Below are positions 18,131 through 31,902 of a stretch of 35,889 nt of DNA, in pieces; the first letter of the stretch is position 1; each line of letters opens with the position of its first letter. This DNA comes from a virus. The position numbers and the translations under genes are program-made. Below the pieces are notes generated by a model, which made no database searches, had not been told where the DNA came from, and saw only the letters and a list, made by a program, of their open reading frames with translations. The stretch is taken from positions 1 through 35,889 of IMG/VR virus record IMGVR_UViG_3300017917_002221; one strand, written 5' to 3'.

Positions 18131-18613
18131 ATGAAACGAATTACTCTACTGACCAAAGCAGACCTTAAACGCAAGTCTGGTACAAAACTCAAAGAGCAAA
18201 TTGAACACAAGCTCACTTGCAAACTAGAGTTTTGTAACAAGCCCTTAACTATGTTTGAAGGTCCGGGTGCAAAACATCTCTGCGAAGAACATCAACTGCA
18301 ACAAAGAGAGTTTGGCGGTCCTGGACGCATTGATCGCCCTTGGACATTTAGCAGAGAGTGGGCTTGCCATTGGTGTGGATATAGTCCTAAAGACGATCCG
18401 TTCTTCGACAATCCCCCAATTCCGTTTGACAACGAAATACATAAAAATCAAGTAATGCGCAGCACACTAATCGGCGACCACTTGATTCGTAAAGTAGAAG
18501 GCGGAGGCCACGGTAAAGACAATGTACAGACATTGTGCCAGACTTGTAACAGCAAAAAGACTGCCTTGTTTAAAGACTTCGTAAAAACAAGCACAGAAGT
18601 AGCACCTCAATAA
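18131..18613 (+). CDS. HNH endonuclease (160 aa)
   Basis: Two zinc-type Cys pairs (CHWCGYSP and LCQTCNSKK) bracket GDHLIRKVEGGGHGKDNVQT, giving the H..N..H layout of HNH nucleases (DH, then N, then C-N-x-x-K). An N-terminal Cys region (CKLEFCNKP, CEEH) may bind another zinc. ATG 18131 directly follows the DGQHR gene; longer frames overlap it. Role (homing, restriction or host DNA cleavage) cannot be told. Confidence 0.82.
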   Translation: MKRITLLTKADLKRKSGTKLKEQIEHKLTCKLEFCNKPLTMFEGPGAKHLCEEHQLQQREFGGPGRIDRPWTFSREWACHWCGYSPKDDPFFDNPPIPFDNEIHKNQVMRSTLIGDHLIRKVEGGGHGKDNVQTLCQTCNSKKTALFKDFVKTSTEVAPQ

Positions 18614-18616
18614 ATA
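18611..18616 (+). promoter_or_regulatory. T4-type late promoter, leaderless spacing
   Basis: AATAAATA ends 5 nt before ATG 18622 (TAAATAGTTTCATG). In T4 the transcript starts about 6 nt past the element, that is at the A of ATG. The 14-nt string recurs identically at 21844-21857. Confidence 0.8.
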
Positions 18617-21841: not shown

Positions 21842-21849
21842 TATAAATA
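21842..21849 (+). promoter_or_regulatory. T4-type late promoter TATAAATA, leaderless spacing
   Basis: Perfect TATAAATA then GTTTC then ATG 21855. No Shine-Dalgarno is present in the transcript. Confidence 0.88.
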
Positions 21850-21854
21850 GTTTC

Positions 21855-22403
21855 ATGAACTTAGCTGGCAACATTTTAATCGCACCCCCTGCAATGAAAG
21901 GGAACTTTTGGCACAAGACTGTTATTATGATTACTGAACATCATAGTAGAGGAAGTGTTGGATTAGTACTAAACAAAAGAAGCAATCTTAGCATTGTTGA
22001 ATTTGCTGATCAATTAGGCTTTACAATTGATATTCCAGGATTTGTTTATATAGGCGGTCCAGTAAACACAAAAAGCCTTTGCCTATTACATACTACAGAT
22101 TGGATAAGCAAAAATACTCTGCAGGTAAGTGACACTTTCTGTCTTAGTTCGGCAGAAGATATATTGCCAAGACTGGCTATGGGCGACACTCCAGAACAGT
22201 GGAGATTGTTTTTAGGACTTTCAGGCTGGGCGCCTGGACAGTTAGTAGGAGAAATCAAAGGAACTCCGCCGTGGAACGAACAGCACAGTTGGTGTATAGC
22301 CAGCGCAGACGAAGAAACGGTTTTTGGTTCGGACGAAAAAGATCAATGGTGCAATGCCTTGGATCGTTCGGGCTTAGAATTTGCCCAAAATTTACTCGCA
22401 TAA
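21855..22403 (+). CDS. YqgE/AlgH family protein (UPF0301)
   Basis: The 182-aa protein matches bacterial YqgE over its length: NILIAPPAMKGNFWHKTVIM at the start, GSVGLVLNKR, FVYIGGPVN, LFLGLSGWAPGQL and PWNEQHSW. The family is widespread in Gram-negative bacteria, with no established biochemical role (AlgH was linked to alginate regulation). In a phage it is an unusual host-type acquisition. It is driven by a leaderless late promoter. Confidence 0.85.
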   Translation: MNLAGNILIAPPAMKGNFWHKTVIMITEHHSRGSVGLVLNKRSNLSIVEFADQLGFTIDIPGFVYIGGPVNTKSLCLLHTTDWISKNTLQVSDTFCLSSAEDILPRLAMGDTPEQWRLFLGLSGWAPGQLVGEIKGTPPWNEQHSWCIASADEETVFGSDEKDQWCNALDRSGLEFAQNLLA

Positions 22404-22484: not shown

Positions 22485-22997
22485 ATGTCAGACACTCTAG
22501 TCTTGAACGCTGATGGACAACCAGTCAGCTACCTACCATTGAGCACTATCAACTGGCAGGAAGCAATTCGTTACATGGTCTTAGACAAGGCCAATGTATT
22601 GTCTTGGCATGAGAATTGGATCGTTAGATCTGCACGTTGGGAAACACAAGTTCCTAGCGTTATCATGCTGCGAGACTACATGAAACCAAAACACGCCGTT
22701 CGCTTTAGCCGCGGCAACATTTACCTACGAGATGGCGGAACATGCCAATACTGTGGCACAGAAGTAGAACGTAAAGATTCTACTCTAGACCATGTTCACC
22801 CAATTTCAAAAGGTGGTAAAACTGTTTGGGAAAACTGTGTAACGGCCTGCGGTCCATGTAATGCTGACAAAGCTGACAAGACCCATACCCACAAGCCTAA
22901 AATCAAACCTTACAAGCCAGACTACTTCGAACTTGTAAATAAGCGTAAGAAGCAGGGCTTCTCAGTGAGGTTTGAAGAATGGTTACAGTATATTTAA
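22485..22997 (+). CDS. HNH endonuclease of the bacterial type (170 aa)
   Basis: The N-terminal half (LVLNADGQPVSYLPLSTINW) is the usual opening of this chromosomal-type HNH family. The nuclease lies at residues 80-130: CQYC zinc pair, LDHVHPISKGGKTVWEN and CGPCNADKAD. AAGGAAG precedes ATG 22485. Its sigma70 promoter with an operator-like palindrome suggests regulated early expression, unlike the late genes around it. The role may be host-DNA cleavage or genome processing. Confidence 0.85.
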   Translation: MSDTLVLNADGQPVSYLPLSTINWQEAIRYMVLDKANVLSWHENWIVRSARWETQVPSVIMLRDYMKPKHAVRFSRGNIYLRDGGTCQYCGTEVERKDSTLDHVHPISKGGKTVWENCVTACGPCNADKADKTHTHKPKIKPYKPDYFELVNKRKKQGFSVRFEEWLQYI

Positions 22998-23413
22998 AAC
23001 AGTGGTTTTGGAAAATCCTAGGCTTTTGTAGCCTAGGTATGGCGTATGTTGGTGTGGTAACACCCGGCATACCTTATAGTCCCTTTGTAGTCTTTGCGGC
23101 CTATTGCTTTGCCAAAGGTTCGCCTAGAATGCATGCCTGGTTATACAATCATAAATTGTTTGGTCCGTTTCTTACCAATTGGGGAGAGAAGCGAGTATTT
23201 CCACAGATGATGAAATACTTTATGTTGGCCATGATGAGTTTAAGTCTTGTACTGATGTACACGGGCGGTGTAAAACCTATCGGAATTATTAGTACCGCAA
23301 TATTCATGGCATTAGTGGCTATCTGGGCCTGGCGCTATCCTAGTTCAGTTGAAGAACACGATAGAAGAATTGCTGCTGGCCGTAAAGTAGGTTGGTTCAA
23401 CAATTCTGTATGA
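22979..23413 (+). CDS. YbaN family (DUF454) inner membrane protein
   Basis: The 144-aa protein has the family signature GMAYVGVVTPGIPYSPFVVF then AAYCFAKGSPRMHAWLYNH and FGPFLTNW, with four predicted membrane segments. YbaN proteins are found in many Proteobacteria; function unknown. The ATG 22979 lies 19 nt inside the HNH gene, with GAGG upstream. A second host-type gene close to YqgE. Confidence 0.82.
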   Translation: MVTVYLKQWFWKILGFCSLGMAYVGVVTPGIPYSPFVVFAAYCFAKGSPRMHAWLYNHKLFGPFLTNWGEKRVFPQMMKYFMLAMMSLSLVLMYTGGVKPIGIISTAIFMALVAIWAWRYPSSVEEHDRRIAAGRKVGWFNNSV

Positions 23414-24663: not shown

Positions 24664-24805
24664 AAATTTTATTGCTGGTTTTGCCATGTACAGCATCAGC
24701 ATGAGCCTTGCCTACGGAGGATATGTAGGTCAAGACTACAGCGATTGGTGTGACCCTAGATATTGCTGCCCACCGAAACCAGAGACATTAAATGCGAGCG
24801 AATGA
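24629..24805 (+). CDS. small membrane protein with Cys-rich end (58 aa)
   Basis: One hydrophobic helix (about residues 11-30: FIAGFAMYSISMSLAYGG) then WCDPRYCCPP, a cluster of three cysteines. The ATG at 24629 has AGAGG 9 nt upstream. Ends within the next gene. Function unknown; could be a periplasm-facing small protein. Confidence 0.58.
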   Translation: MTVRETLTALIKNFIAGFAMYSISMSLAYGGYVGQDYSDWCDPRYCCPPKPETLNASE

Positions 24806-26138
24806 ATTTACACCTGGAAATAAAGATCTTATCATCTTTGATATAGATGATACGTTACTACACACAACTGCTAAGATTAAAGTTGTGGATGCTAATGGTC
24901 GTGTGGTTAGGGAATTAACCAATCAAGAATTTAATAATTACAACCTACAACCAGGTGAGCAGTTTGACTTTGGTGAGTTCCGCAATGCAGAAAAGTTCCG
25001 CCAAGAAAGCAAACCAATTGTTCCTATGGTACGCAAGCTCAAAACAATATTGAGCCATGCTGGCAATGCTAAAGTTATTATGTTAACTGCTCGTGCAGAC
25101 TTCGACGATAAAGAGACATTCTTGCAGACATTCAAAGACTTGGGCATTGACATGAGTCGTGTCCATGTGCATCGTGCTGGTAACTTGCCTGGAAACGAAT
25201 CTCCAGCTTATAAAAAAGCTATATGGGTGCGCAAATACTTAAACACTAAACAGTACGGACATGTAAGGTTATACGATGATAGTATGAGCAACCTTCGTGT
25301 GTTTAAGGATCTCAAAAACGAATACCCGCAAGTTGACTTCCGTGCTATCTATGTCGGACCTACGGGTTCAACACAAGTTATAGAAAATCAAGACGACGAA
25401 ATACATAACTATGAAAAACTAGACAGCATTCTAAAAGAACTTGCAGATCTAGTAGTCAAAGGTCAACGTAAAGACTCTGACAAATTCGGAATGGTAGCAG
25501 CCGCAGTATTAGACAATGACAACAATCTAGTTAAAGGTATAAACTTGCCAGCACCAAACGGTAAACGTCGTCATGCAGAACGTGTTGCCATTGACAGATA
25601 CGTAGAACAGTACGGAGAGATTCCGGCCGGCAGTATTATTATTACAACATGTAGTCCCTGTAGTGAACACATGGACGAGCGTTACGGCGAAGACTGTACA
25701 GAACTTATCAACCAGCACGGTGTTAAAAAAGTCTATGCAGGTTATATGGATCCTACACAGGAAGAAGAGCATAGAGATTTTAATATAATGGAAACTGAAA
25801 ATAGTTCTATTAGGAGTATGTGCAAAGAGTTTGCTGATACTTTTTTACACCTAAGAGAGTCTCGCAAATTAAAAAAACGAAAAGTTCGAAAAGCCGCATA
25901 CGGTCCTGGACCGTTTGGTATGTACGGAACTGATGCAGGATATAGCGGTGATGGCGGCGTCGGCGAAAACTTTGCAGATGGACGTAATCCGCAGGACAAA
26001 GGCGATAGCAAACGCCACGGAGTTCCTACAAAAGCCAGTGTAAGCACACTACGCAAAGTAGCCAAACAAGGTGGCCGCAAGGGACAGTTAGCACATTGGA
26101 TGGCAAATATGAAAGCCGGGAGGGCTAAGAAGAAATGA
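24792..26138 (+). CDS. HAD phosphatase and RibD/CMP-type deaminase fusion with capsid-tag-like N-terminus
   Basis: Three parts in 448 aa. Residues 1-6 (MRANEF) are a weak form of the late tag. Residues 12-190 are a HAD domain: IIFDIDDTLLHTT (Asp17, Asp19), VIMLTAR (95-101) and YDDSMSNLRVF (161-171). Residues 230-330 form a zinc deaminase: HAE (261-263), CSPC (287-290) and Cys302, followed by VYAGYMDPTQ, an arrangement close to RibD. The end (from 355) is basic with GRKGQLAHWMANMKAG. Substrates are unknown; nucleotide or base modification is likely. Overlaps the next gene. Confidence 0.78.
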   Translation: MRANEFTPGNKDLIIFDIDDTLLHTTAKIKVVDANGRVVRELTNQEFNNYNLQPGEQFDFGEFRNAEKFRQESKPIVPMVRKLKTILSHAGNAKVIMLTARADFDDKETFLQTFKDLGIDMSRVHVHRAGNLPGNESPAYKKAIWVRKYLNTKQYGHVRLYDDSMSNLRVFKDLKNEYPQVDFRAIYVGPTGSTQVIENQDDEIHNYEKLDSILKELADLVVKGQRKDSDKFGMVAAAVLDNDNNLVKGINLPAPNGKRRHAERVAIDRYVEQYGEIPAGSIIITTCSPCSEHMDERYGEDCTELINQHGVKKVYAGYMDPTQEEEHRDFNIMETENSSIRSMCKEFADTFLHLRESRKLKKRKVRKAAYGPGPFGMYGTDAGYSGDGGVGENFADGRNPQDKGDSKRHGVPTKASVSTLRKVAKQGGRKGQLAHWMANMKAGRAKKK

Positions 26139-26518
26139 AAAATTTATTATTAGTACTTACAGTTGTAGGATTAACAGGCTGCTCAACTATTAAAGATTGG
26201 ATTCCTGTTCGCTGGGATGCAAACCATAGTCAATCAATAACAACAATTCAACAGACAACTCGTAACTTTGATTGCAAAGCAGACATTGCACAGCAGGCTC
26301 GAGACCTAGCACAAAAAGTAGAATGGTTTGAAATATATGCTAAAAGCAAACCAACTAGAGACGTTATTGCTCCAGCAGGTAAAATGAGTGATTCTGTAAA
26401 AGAACTAGTAGACAGAACTAGTAAAGGACCAGTTAGTCCAACCTACTGTGAAATTAAGAAAAAGATTTTAATACAACAGGCAGATATGTTAGCACATACT
26501 GTTCAAGGGAGATTTTAA
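26135..26518 (+). CDS. small lipoprotein (127 aa)
   Basis: A lipoprotein signal peptide with lipobox LTGC (Cys16) after a hydrophobic stretch; the mature part is soluble and mostly helical, with two more cysteines (Cys in NFDCKAD and TYCEIKK). It should be anchored in the outer or inner membrane facing the periplasm. An outer spanin is possible, but it is longer than most and no inner spanin is identified here. ATGA overlap with the fusion gene. Confidence 0.75.
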   Translation: MKNLLLVLTVVGLTGCSTIKDWIPVRWDANHSQSITTIQQTTRNFDCKADIAQQARDLAQKVEWFEIYAKSKPTRDVIAPAGKMSDSVKELVDRTSKGPVSPTYCEIKKKILIQQADMLAHTVQGRF

Positions 26519-26755
26519 ATGCAAGATAGTTTGTTACAATTAGCAGGATGTGGTTTACCTTGGGCAGAGACCCGTGCTCAAATGGCACTACAGATCGCTG
26601 AAGCAAATCAAAAAGGCGAAATCACAGCTGAAGAAGCTTTTGCATTATTGCAAGACTTAGTTAACACTGACAAGCTGAACGAAGAAGCTACAAATGCTGA
26701 AGCTCGTGCAATGCTAGTTATCGGAATAACTCATATAGCTCAAATGCTTGTTTAA
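26519..26755 (+). CDS. hypothetical helical protein (78 aa)
   Basis: A 78-aa acidic, fully helical protein ([20 protein letters not shown]). It begins right after the lipoprotein stop. Its last 38 nt overlap the end of the leftward 5-aminolevulinate synthase gene, so the two transcripts converge here. Function unknown. Confidence 0.7.
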
Positions 26756-27929
26756 GAGCATTAACTAGATCTTCAATCATACCGTCGTCGTGGTATGGAG
26801 TAGGAGCAAATCGTAAACGTTCTGTTCCTACATCAACTGTTGGATAGTTGATTGGTTGAACATAGATGCTATGCTCATTCAACAAGTAATCGCTAATTGC
26901 TTTACATTTTTTAGCGTCACCAATTAATACAGGAACTATGTGGGTAGTACTGCAATCCATAACAGGAATTCCTACTTTAGATAATTCTTGTTTTAATTTA
27001 TTAGCTCTGTCCTGATGGCGTTCTCTAACTTCACCATGCTCTTTTAAAAACTTAATTGCTGCCAGTGCCCCTGAACAAGTTACAGGACTCATACTAGTTG
27101 TAAAGATAAAACCAGCAGCAATGCTACGAATGGCATCTGCCACAATTTTATCACAGGCAATATAGCCTCCTTGTGTTCCGTAGGCTTTGCCTAATGTTCC
27201 ATTAATGATATCAATTTGATCTTCAAGCCCTAGTTCTTCAACTTTACCAGCGCCTGTTGGACCATATAGACCTACGGCGTGAACTTCGTCGATGTAGGTT
27301 ACAGCTTTATACTTTTTGGCTAATCGACAAATTTCTTTCATAGGACTGACATCTCCGTCCATGCTGTATACACTTTCAAAAACAATACAGGGTGTATTAC
27401 CTTGTGCAAAACTAATCTTAAGTTTCTGTTCTAGATCTTCTAAGTCGTTGTGTTTAAACACAACTTTCTTAGCACGACTGTGTTGTATACCAACAATCAT
27501 ACTGTTATGATTATTACTGTCACTAATGTACTCGATGTTAGGAATAATTTTAGCTAGAGCTATTAGTGTCCACTCGTTAGCAACATACGCACTACTGAAT
27601 AGTAAGGCCTTTTCTTTCTTGTGTAAACTGGCTAATTCGTATTCCAGAGCCACGTGATAATGACTAGTTCCGCCAATATTGCGTGTTCCTCCTGAGCCGC
27701 TACCTGTATGGTCTAAGGCTGTATGCATAGCATCAATTACTACTTTATGTTGGCCCATGCCCAGGTAATCGTTACTACACCAGTTTACAATGTTCTTAAT
27801 ATTATAAGGCCCATACCAAATGGCCTTAGGAAACTTGCCATTTTCACGTACAATGTCGTTAAACACACGGTATTTGCCGTTTTCTTTAAGTTCTGCTATT
27901 AGCTTTTCAAATGGTTCTTTGTTTATCAT
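26718..27929 (-). CDS. hemA: 5-aminolevulinate synthase (ALAS)
   Basis: A full-length (403 aa) pyridoxal-phosphate enzyme that condenses glycine and succinyl-CoA to 5-aminolevulinate, the first step of the Shemin pathway to heme. Diagnostic segments: GKYRVFNDI (Arg21), [12 protein letters not shown] (50-61), [17 protein letters not shown] (76-92), [19 protein letters not shown] (Asp214, His217), NGTLGKAYG (Lys248, the PLP lysine) and [10 protein letters not shown]...[11 protein letters not shown]. All key residues are present. Start ATG 27929 is chosen because a TAAATA element lies 7 nt upstream; the frame extends further but out of the transcript. It is the only leftward gene between 4448 and 30744. 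Confidence 0.93.
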
Positions 27930-27936
27930 AGTGACG

Positions 27937-27942
27937 TATTTA
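27937..27942 (-). promoter_or_regulatory. late promoter element for the ALAS gene
   Basis: GTTAAATA on the minus strand, 7 nt before ATG 27929, with no Shine-Dalgarno. It is divergent from the element at 27947. Confidence 0.65.
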
Positions 27943-27946
27943 ACAC

Positions 27947-27952
27947 TAAATA
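27947..27952 (+). promoter_or_regulatory. T4-type late promoter element
   Basis: CTAAATATAGG with ACAGGA in a 19-nt leader before ATG 27972. Confidence 0.65.
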
Positions 27953-27971
27953 TAGGATACAGGAAAAAAAC

Positions 27972-28334
27972 ATGAGAATCCAAGATATCATACGCGGCTT
28001 TATTGACATGATTGATCAAAGTCAACGTCCGCAAGAACCAGAACAAGTGACTACAGTTGTTGTAGCACATCCTACAGCAACTATTGATGAGCCAGAAGAT
28101 GCTAGTCCGCTTACACACGCAGGCGACGACATCCGTAGATTTAAACAAATTGTTGATCTTGCAGACAACGACGGTGTTGAACCTTACGGAAACACACCTA
28201 AAGAAAAGTACGCAGATATCGATAGTGTAACTTGCGATGCTGGCGGTGGAATGCAAGCACCTAAACATCCTGCAGACATTCGAGTACAGCATCCAAGTAT
28301 GTATCCTGGACATCAACATAAGGTAGGAGAGTAA
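27972..28334 (+). CDS. late protein with capsid-tag-like N-terminus (120 aa)
   Basis: Begins [10 protein letters not shown], matching the tag of other late proteins. The rest is Pro/Asp/His-rich with little structure ([19 protein letters not shown], ending [14 protein letters not shown]). Probably a virion or head-internal protein. Ends 1 nt before the next gene. Confidence 0.72.
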
Positions 28335-28602: not shown

Positions 28603-29907
28603 ATGGGCGTACAACAACCTAATTCAACAAACTACAGCCATCCGCACGAAAGTCACTTGCTTGACTTGCATAATGCGATGGACTATAACAGTCTAGGACA
28701 ACCTGTTTTAAGAACTACTTCAGGTGCCGCCCCTACATCTAACGATGCATTTGGTAGGCTACGTGTTAGTAATCCGTTAACTTTATTTGATAGCTTTCAT
28801 CGCTATAACGACAATGGTAAAATTAACACATATACCAGCGGAACAGCCAGTGCTACACAGAATTCAAATGCAGGCCTAATTGAATGTACTGTTGGTACGG
28901 CCAGTGGAGATAAAGTATATAGAGAAAGCAGTCGTGTGTTTGCCTACCAACCTGGAAAGAGTCTTCAAATACTAACAACATTTTGCATGGCACCAGGTAA
29001 AACAAATCTGCGTCAACGCATAGGATACTTTGATACGGCTAACGGTGTGTTCTTAGAACAAGACGGTACGCAGTTAAGTTTTAGAGTACGTAGTTCAACT
29101 ACAGGATCAATTGTTTATGAAACAGCCAATCAAGCAGATTGGAATGTTGATCCTTTAAACGGTACAGGTATATCAGCAAAAACACTTGATATTACCAAAG
29201 CACAAATTTTATTTTTTGATATAGAGTGGTTGGGTGTTGGCAGCGTTCGTTGCGGATTTGTTATCGACGGTGAATTTGTTTTAGCACATATATTTCACCA
29301 TGCAAATCGTACAACAGGAACCTACATGACTACTGCCTGTTTGCCTATACGAATGGAATTAGAAAACACCGGAGCTACAGCAAGTTCAAGTACTTATAAA
29401 CAAATCTGTTCGACTGTCATCAGTGAAGGCGGATATGCCTTAACAGGCCGCCCATTAAGTATTGGACATAGATTAAATGCCGCATACAGTTTAACGGATC
29501 CAAACATAGTTTACCCTATCTTTACTATGAGATTAAAAAGCACAAGATTGGGAGGTATTGTATTACCTAAGAACTACAGCGTTGGCCTAACAGGTAACAA
29601 CAATTTTAGGTTTATGATTGTTATAGGCGGAGTTACTTCAGGAGGCACTTGGGTTGATGCTGGAGCAGACAGTTCAGTAGAATATAATTTAACTGCTACA
29701 AGCATTACAGGCGGGCGTATTGCAGAATGGAAACAGATTATAGGTAGCAACCAGTTCGCTGGAGTTGCTGATGTCGCAGATCCATTTGCGTATCAATTAG
29801 AACGTAACACATTTACAAGTACTGCTACTGAACTGTCTATATGCTTAACAACTAGCGGTAATAACGTAGCTGTCTATGGTGCAGCGAACTGGGAAGAAAT
29901 CACTTAA
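28603..29907 (+). CDS. virion structural protein of the FGRLRVS type (434 aa)
   Basis: Residues 43-62 read APTSNDAFGRLRVSNPLTLF, a motif of large structural proteins in T4-like cyanophages and relatives. The rest is beta-rich and Thr/Ser/Gly-rich (TYTSGTASATQNSNAGLIEC), with no catalytic motif. It is probably a capsid-exterior, neck or fibre protein. An AT-rich TTAATATA element lies 2 nt upstream of ATG 28603, and there is no Shine-Dalgarno. Exact virion position unknown. Confidence 0.82.
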   Translation: MGVQQPNSTNYSHPHESHLLDLHNAMDYNSLGQPVLRTTSGAAPTSNDAFGRLRVSNPLTLFDSFHRYNDNGKINTYTSGTASATQNSNAGLIECTVGTASGDKVYRESSRVFAYQPGKSLQILTTFCMAPGKTNLRQRIGYFDTANGVFLEQDGTQLSFRVRSSTTGSIVYETANQADWNVDPLNGTGISAKTLDITKAQILFFDIEWLGVGSVRCGFVIDGEFVLAHIFHHANRTTGTYMTTACLPIRMELENTGATASSSTYKQICSTVISEGGYALTGRPLSIGHRLNAAYSLTDPNIVYPIFTMRLKSTRLGGIVLPKNYSVGLTGNNNFRFMIVIGGVTSGGTWVDAGADSSVEYNLTATSITGGRIAEWKQIIGSNQFAGVADVADPFAYQLERNTFTSTATELSICLTTSGNNVAVYGAANWEEIT

Positions 29908-30743: not shown

Positions 30744-31010
30744 TTACTTCTTTACGCCAGCATTTACAAAACCGTACATTTTTTCAGCTGTTTCTAACAC
30801 TTTGTCAAGACCTGGAAATTGTGGCATTTCAACTGTGCTAACAATCTGTCCAGTTTTTTCATCACGTTTGGCTGACATTTCCCAACCTTGGAATTTGACG
30901 CTGTATTCGCTTTGAACAAGATCTTTAGCCATTGCTAGAATGTCTGTACGTATTTCGTAGCCGTTCTTGTTAAACTTAACTTCTGGTAGTTTTGGTGCAA
31001 AATCGGACAT
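30744..31010 (-). CDS. hypothetical protein paired with the phasin-like gene (88 aa)
   Basis: A mixed alpha/beta protein (FNKNGYEIRTDILAMAKDLV, then MPQFPGLDKVLETAEKMYGF). Unknown function. It starts 2 nt after the phasin-like gene with AAGGGG upstream and shares its promoter, so the products likely work together. Ends 64 nt from the terminator. Confidence 0.78.
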   Translation of the reverse strand: MSDFAPKLPEVKFNKNGYEIRTDILAMAKDLVQSEYSVKFQGWEMSAKRDEKTGQIVSTVEMPQFPGLDKVLETAEKMYGFVNAGVKK

Positions 31011-31012
31011 GT

Positions 31013-31231
31013 TTAGGCCCCTTTCTTAGAGTAAACTGAATCACTCACGCCTTTGAAGGCAAGTTGAGCAAGGCTCAAACTAGTTTGATAAGAATTTTTA
31101 ATAAATTTGGCATTCGCCTCAGTTAGCTTAACTAACTCTGTTTGAATTTTCTTATCTGCAACGTAAGTTTCTACGAAAGATTTCTGAGCACCTTGAACGG
31201 TGTCAACGATTGTGTCAAATGATGTAAACAT
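31013..31231 (-). CDS. phasin-like small protein (72 aa)
   Basis: Starts MFTSFDTIVDTVQGAQKSF, and continues with an amphipathic helix with regular Ala, Leu and Lys (AKFIKNSYQTSLSLAQLAF). This resembles the helical core of phasins, which coat polyhydroxybutyrate granules, but it is much shorter than the usual 150-190 aa. The assignment is by pattern only. Strong AAGGAG; the leader has a hairpin. Confidence 0.55.
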   Translation of the reverse strand: MFTSFDTIVDTVQGAQKSFVETYVADKKIQTELVKLTEANAKFIKNSYQTSLSLAQLAFKGVSDSVYSKKGA

Positions 31232-31316: not shown

Positions 31317-31892
31317 CTATTTCTTGAACTTTTTTATTCGTTCTTTGATAATTTTAACTACTGGTTCTGCCAATACAACTTCGTAGTGATTGTAATCCAC
31401 TTCTATCAACTCCATATCTTCATGATGTTTCTGACTAGCTACAGTAACAACTCCGTCGTTGTGAGCAAGCATGAAAGGACTTTGACCTTTGACCGTTACA
31501 ACATTAGTCCAAGGGTGCCGGATTTTAATCTTATCTGCTTGTTTAAAAGCCCAACTATTAGGACCAATATCACGCATCAATCTGCTGAAAGGTAAAAAGT
31601 ATTTGGCATACTCGGCTACTTCAGCACCTCCATAAGGAGTACTTAGTGTAACCGCTCCTAACACTTGTTTGGGCAAAATGTTAGCAATATGTAAACTATA
31701 AATGCCACCCAAACTATGTGCTACAAATGCAATGTCATCTACAGTAGATAGTTGTTCAAGCATGTCTTTTAGGTTGTTTTCAAACCCATTACGACTATCA
31801 TAATTGATGTCTATGCCCTCACCCAACTTACTTCTAATGTAGTTAAAACTTTCACTGGTAGCACTGGCTCCGTGAATATAAACTAATTTCAT
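31317..31892 (-). CDS. alpha/beta hydrolase
   Basis: The 191-aa protein has VYIHGAS (oxyanion hole, residues 4-10), FVAHSLGG (Ser60 nucleophile), HNDGVVT (Asp146) and NHYEVV (His169): a complete catalytic triad. No signal peptide, so cytoplasmic. It could be an esterase, lipase or PHB-type depolymerase; the substrate is open. Start ATG 31892 lies 4 nt after TAAATA on the minus strand, with no Shine-Dalgarno. Confidence 0.83.
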   Translation of the reverse strand: MKLVYIHGASATSESFNYIRSKLGEGIDINYDSRNGFENNLKDMLEQLSTVDDIAFVAHSLGGIYSLHIANILPKQVLGAVTLSTPYGGAEVAEYAKYFLPFSRLMRDIGPNSWAFKQADKIKIRHPWTNVVTVKGQSPFMLAHNDGVVTVASQKHHEDMELIEVDYNHYEVVLAEPVVKIIKERIKKFKK

Positions 31893-31896
31893 CAGA

Positions 31897-31902
31897 TATT
31901 TA
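31897..31902 (-). promoter_or_regulatory. late promoter element, leaderless spacing
   Basis: AAATAAATATCTGATG on the minus strand: the element ends 4 nt before ATG 31892. Confidence 0.72.

Follow-up and report, generated by a model that had tools for sequence, protein, structure and literature searches.

The ALAS gene and its surroundings

The window (the whole stretch of DNA analysed, a virus record of 35,889 bases taken from end to end) encodes a 5-aminolevulinate synthase (ALAS), which forms the first precursor of heme, amid phage genes in a phage genome. The gene and those around it are as follows.

26135–26518 (+), lipoprotein-like gene, 127 amino acids; spanin-like by inspection only, and conserved beside the 78-amino acid gene
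26519–26755 (+), 78-amino acid gene, tail to tail with ALAS, with a 38-base overlap
26718–27929 (−), ALAS (valaS), 403 amino acids, complete; assigned from models, PDB matches and residues
27972–28334 (+), divergent neighbour of ALAS, 120 amino acids, with an SD-like purine tract
28603–29907 (+), virion structural protein (phrog_1645)
30744–31010 (−), 88-amino acid gene of a leftward island
31013–31231 (−), 72-amino acid gene of the same island
31317–31892 (−), alpha/beta hydrolase of the same island, with its own TAAATA 10 nt ahead of the ATG

The nearby phrog_1645 protein places ALAS within the structural gene region. The 78-amino acid gene is among the commonest conserved neighbours of ALAS in related phages, and many related contigs have the same neighbours, with ALAS again leftward with respect to them. 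The original prediction described ALAS as a lone leftward gene, which is accurate locally but not for the window overall, as the three genes of the island also run leftward ~3 kb away. In nearly all relatives having these island genes, their direction is the same as that of ALAS. The island is widely kept in related phages, and its 72-amino acid protein looks phasin-like by eye, with no Pfam match. No tRNAs were found in the 35,889 bases.

Several other genes on the plus strand of the window deserve mention. An AlgH-like (DUF179) gene in the late region (21855–22403) is conserved in many relatives, and the protein encoded at 24792–26138 combines an N-terminal HAD/polynucleotide kinase-like part with a deaminase zinc-binding domain. 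A homologue of the gene at 22979–23413 lies close behind ALAS, on the same strand, in phage-like contigs binned in metagenome-assembled genomes (MAGs; L082, L084, L085, and L088).

The ALAS open reading frame is free of stops over its 403 codons. Its product scores 578.7 bits against the ALAS equivalog model TIGR01821 (cut-off 338.6), and the closest solved structures are ALAS chains (7x98, the top score, and 2bwn from Rhodobacter capsulatus; E ≤1e-126), which align with it over almost the full length. All 17 catalytic and substrate positions compared are identical to those of R. capsulatus ALAS (R21, N53, T82, N84, I85, S136, D137, H141, E185, S189, D214, V216, H217, T245, K248, T364, and R373). 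These include the PLP lysine, the glycine-carboxylate arginine, and the succinyl-CoA residues (K248, R373, R21, T82, N84, and I85). The same 17 positions are invariant across 124 viral ALAS sequences, save for one gap. M1 is the sole possible start ahead of the substrate residue R21, and it aligns with the N-terminus of the R. capsulatus enzyme. Compared with its nearest relative (L001, 95% identical), the gene has a dN of 0.036 and a dS of 1.33; this low dN relative to dS, together with the unbroken reading frame, indicates an intact gene under strong purifying selection.

Two other accounts of the gene were weighed. As ALAS shares a superfamily with the other alpha-oxoamine synthases, and the protein has weaker matches to models of these, it might instead be an enzyme of the Kbl, BioF, or serine palmitoyltransferase type. 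Each such model is, however, matched below its own cut-off (BioF, 320.9 bits against 426; the two glycine C-acetyltransferase (Kbl) models, 314.6 against 460 and 264.3 against 493; serine palmitoyltransferase, well under), whereas the ALAS cut-off is exceeded by 240 bits. R21, T82, N84, and I85 are residues of ALAS, and in the tree the protein groups with ALAS and away from the Kbl-type outgroup. We regard this account as having a negligible chance of being correct, and a Kbl or BioF identity was dropped on the combined grounds of models, residues, and tree. The other account holds that ALAS was acquired recently, as a passenger that plays no part in infection, and it draws on some related phage loci that lack ALAS at the same place (L193). 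A clean, intact site without ALAS was sought among the related loci and none was found; the 78-amino acid neighbour occurs without ALAS only in the distant loci L193 and L194, the first of which has a different setting. Against a recent passenger stand the strong purifying selection on the gene and the fact that many divergent contigs have kept its orientation, its neighbours, and its promoter, which leave this account very improbable.

The window gene is a real, complete, and, as judged from its sequence, very probably functional ALAS carried by a phage. The original prediction of a complete and likely functional ALAS is borne out by the model score, the residues, and the signs of selection, and its proposed refutation, a grouping with Kbl or AONS enzymes, was sought with models and tree and did not appear. 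Activity itself has been shown by others for a relative: the valaS of phage CB_2 complemented an Escherichia coli ALA auxotroph, and its enzyme activity was assayed (Wegner et al., Nat Commun; PMC11480375).

Probable late-promoter elements and their spacing

TAAATA elements of the T4 late type occur at the following places in the window.

18611–18616 (+), close-spaced late element, 11 nt ahead of 18622 (epimerase)
21844–21849 (+), close-spaced late element, TATAAATAGTTTC-ATG, 11 nt ahead of 21855 (AlgH-like gene)
27937–27942 (−), TAAATA late element for ALAS, 13 nt ahead of the ATG
27947–27952 (+), second TAAATA, standing back to back with that of ALAS, 25 nt ahead of the gene at 27972
31897–31902 (−), close-spaced late element, 10 nt from the alpha/beta hydrolase start
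33877 and 34795, close-spaced TAAATA elements, 10–11 nt ahead of the start codons of genes of no assigned function

ALAS and its divergent neighbour are separated by a gap of 42 bp (27930–27971), within which the two opposed TAAATA elements stand ten bases apart, the plus-strand one facing the neighbour. On the minus strand, the sequence ahead of ALAS is GTTAAATACGTCACTATG. The late-type element attributed to ALAS by the original prediction is therefore present, and it is also conserved: of 75 distinct upstream regions from viral ALAS genes, 56 carry TAAATA 11–14 nt ahead of the ATG, as compared with an expectation of 1% per region from a first-order Markov control. These 75 regions are related and hence not independent, and their flanking bases vary while the position of the element stays. 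A TATAAATA-like box, the mark of a T4-type late promoter, is present upstream of late genes. A scan for sigma-70 promoters gave no informative site for ALAS.

We surveyed the spacing of TAAATA ahead of ATG codons in 64 related loci (~1 Mb). The distances fall into two peaks, one at −10 to −14 (228 matches) and the other at approximately −22 to −34, with only three matches at −15 to −18. Control hexamers not overlapping TAAATA had no such two-peak pattern in the same 64 loci. Collapsed by gene, the close class (10–14 nt) comprises 200 starts in 33 protein families and the far class (22–34 nt) 143 starts in 32 families. The close class has ALAS as its most numerous family, with 51 of the 200 starts. 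An SD-like trimer precedes 129 of the 143 far-spaced starts as against 16 of the 200 close-spaced ones, a scarcity that is partly built in, since the late element at a close-spaced start takes up most of the SD region. The proportions are reversed in 50-kb stretches of T4 (1 close-spaced and 20 far-spaced TAAATA) and S-PM2 (0 and 14, respectively); HTVC008M has too few matches for its class to be judged.

In T4, the late promoter box lies about one helical turn ahead of the transcription start (PMC2988020). At this distance, the ALAS transcript is predicted to start within ~3 nt of the ATG, and near-leaderless late mRNAs are predicted likewise for the other genes of the close class. Expression of ALAS would then be late in infection, and we infer that it benefits the phage. 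The T4-like nature of this group is supported by Gp23 in three related virus records, two of which also have a gp55-like protein; a search of 11 related virus records, many of them fragmentary, with the HTVC008M gp55 gave matches in two.

TAAATA near the ATG might alternatively be no promoter at all but AT-rich sequence ahead of a start codon, with ALAS translated from a longer transcript begun upstream. AT-rich sequence is generally favourable to the start of translation. What this alternative leaves unexplained is the sharp spacing of TAAATA with its gap at −15 to −18, a peak of a kind that the non-overlapping control hexamers do not produce. In addition, the opposed element serves the neighbouring gene, and a longer ALAS leader would be antisense to that neighbour. 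We therefore consider this alternative unlikely, though far less so than the two discussed above, and favour a pair of late promoters in the gap.

Origin, spread, and associated genes

Phage ALAS was described in 2024 as valaS, found alone, in a three-gene cassette, or as a broken cassette whose hemO and pcyA/X lie elsewhere (PMC11480375), and the window gene belongs to this published type. Of the earlier characterization of such genes as known but rare, the first part stands and the second does not. A profile-derived scan confirmed at least 571 ALAS relatives in IMG/VR stretches, and the gene is common in freshwater and aquatic virus contigs. No record in an annotated phage collection was more than 60% identical to the window ALAS; the matches there were distant superfamily members only, several of them in records resembling bacterial DNA. 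With the window gene, a published auxiliary metabolic gene is confirmed and seen to be widespread in freshwater phages.

Phage ALAS forms one clade in two trees, of 94 and 44 sequences, and this clade includes the ALAS genes on phage-like contigs binned in MAGs. The chromosomal ALAS of SAR11 (Pelagibacteraceae) is sister to this clade in both trees, with starred support; one of the SAR11 genes adjoins hemN, with a ubiM-type gene beside it, on a chromosomal contig. At the position of R. capsulatus H342, which serves heme feedback, all but two of 124 phage sequences have lysine or arginine. Both SAR11 sequences have lysine here, and none of the alphaproteobacterial MAG sequences compared has histidine. 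Given this distribution, the phages probably acquired their ALAS from the donor with the feedback histidine already missing, so that its absence would be no adaptation of their own.

The original prediction also stated that neither heme oxygenase nor bilin reductase lies next to ALAS. This is correct for the window, in which we found no heme oxygenase in all 35,889 bases and no bilin reductase among the larger open reading frames scanned. Among related records and genomes, heme oxygenase occurs in 18 of 30 and bilin reductase in 17 of 31, and in virus records that have both, the two are close to each other. By coordinates, the hemO-pcyA/X cassette lies ~29 kb upstream of ALAS in three close relatives (G002, G003, and G006), and a bilin reductase lies ~31 kb upstream in a fourth genome (G031). 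A cassette placed as in these relatives would fall at ~57 kb in window coordinates. Their absence from the window is probably explained by the record ending before that position.

A phage-clade ALAS also occurs among bacterial chromosomal genes (L083, 6001–7188) in the Neisseriaceae bacterium PsAf, a symbiont of the louse Polyplax serrata (PMC9376444). It is 69–71% identical to the phage enzymes, and the same stretch holds pdxA, lptD, amgK, a patatin gene, and an efflux gene. The PsAf sequence groups with the phage core (support 100/99) on a long branch, and its exclusion from the phage clade yielded p = 0.057 in an AU test. In the draft PsAf assembly, no HemA or HemL scored above cut-off, and HemB and ferrochelatase are present. 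HemA was found in 57 of 61 family members searched, none of which other than PsAf had an ALAS-like match beyond the superfamily level of 28–36%; in three other genomes of the family, neither HemA nor ALAS was found. Given these three genomes and the draft state of the assembly, we regard HemA and HemL as only possibly lost from PsAf. The simplest reading of these sequences is that the gene was transferred from a phage and then took over the first step of heme synthesis. If so, PsAf would be a bacterium that relies on a phage-type enzyme for this step. Our literature search found no paper on a phage-derived ALAS in an endosymbiont.

Interpretation and comparison with known systems

We consider it quite likely that the window gene is a valaS, borne as an auxiliary metabolic gene by freshwater T4-like myoviruses, with a SAR11-like ancestor and a bidirectional late promoter. 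Its ancestor would have come from a SAR11-like (Pelagibacteraceae) chromosome, and ALAS would by now have become established in a large clade of these viruses. A T4-type late RNA polymerase would, at a late stage of infection, read the two opposed TAAATA elements in the gap at 27930–27971, yielding rightward an SD-led mRNA for the neighbouring gene and leftward an almost leaderless ALAS mRNA. In relatives, the hemO-pcyA/X pair elsewhere in the genome could convert heme to bilin. A broader proposal, that PsAf captured phage ALAS for the first step of its heme pathway and that phage ALAS belongs to a near-leaderless class of T4-type late genes, served here by a bidirectional promoter, is put forward more tentatively, with a probability slightly short of even.

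Among known systems, bacterial ALAS (R. capsulatus, PDB 2bwn) has all 17 checked residues in common with the window enzyme and differs in that the latter has lysine at the position of His342 and no C-terminal cysteine. The published valaS (PMC11480375) and the window gene are alike in normal length and intact active site, and both lack the histidine and cysteine of heme feedback. The abstract, results, and discussion of that description contain no bidirectional close-spaced late promoter. The promoter architecture with its near-leaderless gene class, the SAR11 origin and SAR11-like lack of the feedback histidine, and a bacterium apparently using a phage-type enzyme are testable additions to the published account.

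As for transcription, phage transcripts are often leaderless, as remarked in PMC5312081, and such mRNAs begin at or close to their start codon, as predicted for ALAS. The prediction made here differs from those cases in extending to an entire class of late genes of the T4 type; in the literature searched, of which coverage was partial, we found no description of leaderless late genes in T4-like phages. The placement of the TAAATA core resembles that of T4-type late promoters (gp55/gp33/gp45; PMC2988020), with the start expected about one helical turn downstream. The late element of T4 and S-PM2 mostly lies at least 20 nt before the ATG, whereas the phage group of the window has a large class at 10–14 nt.
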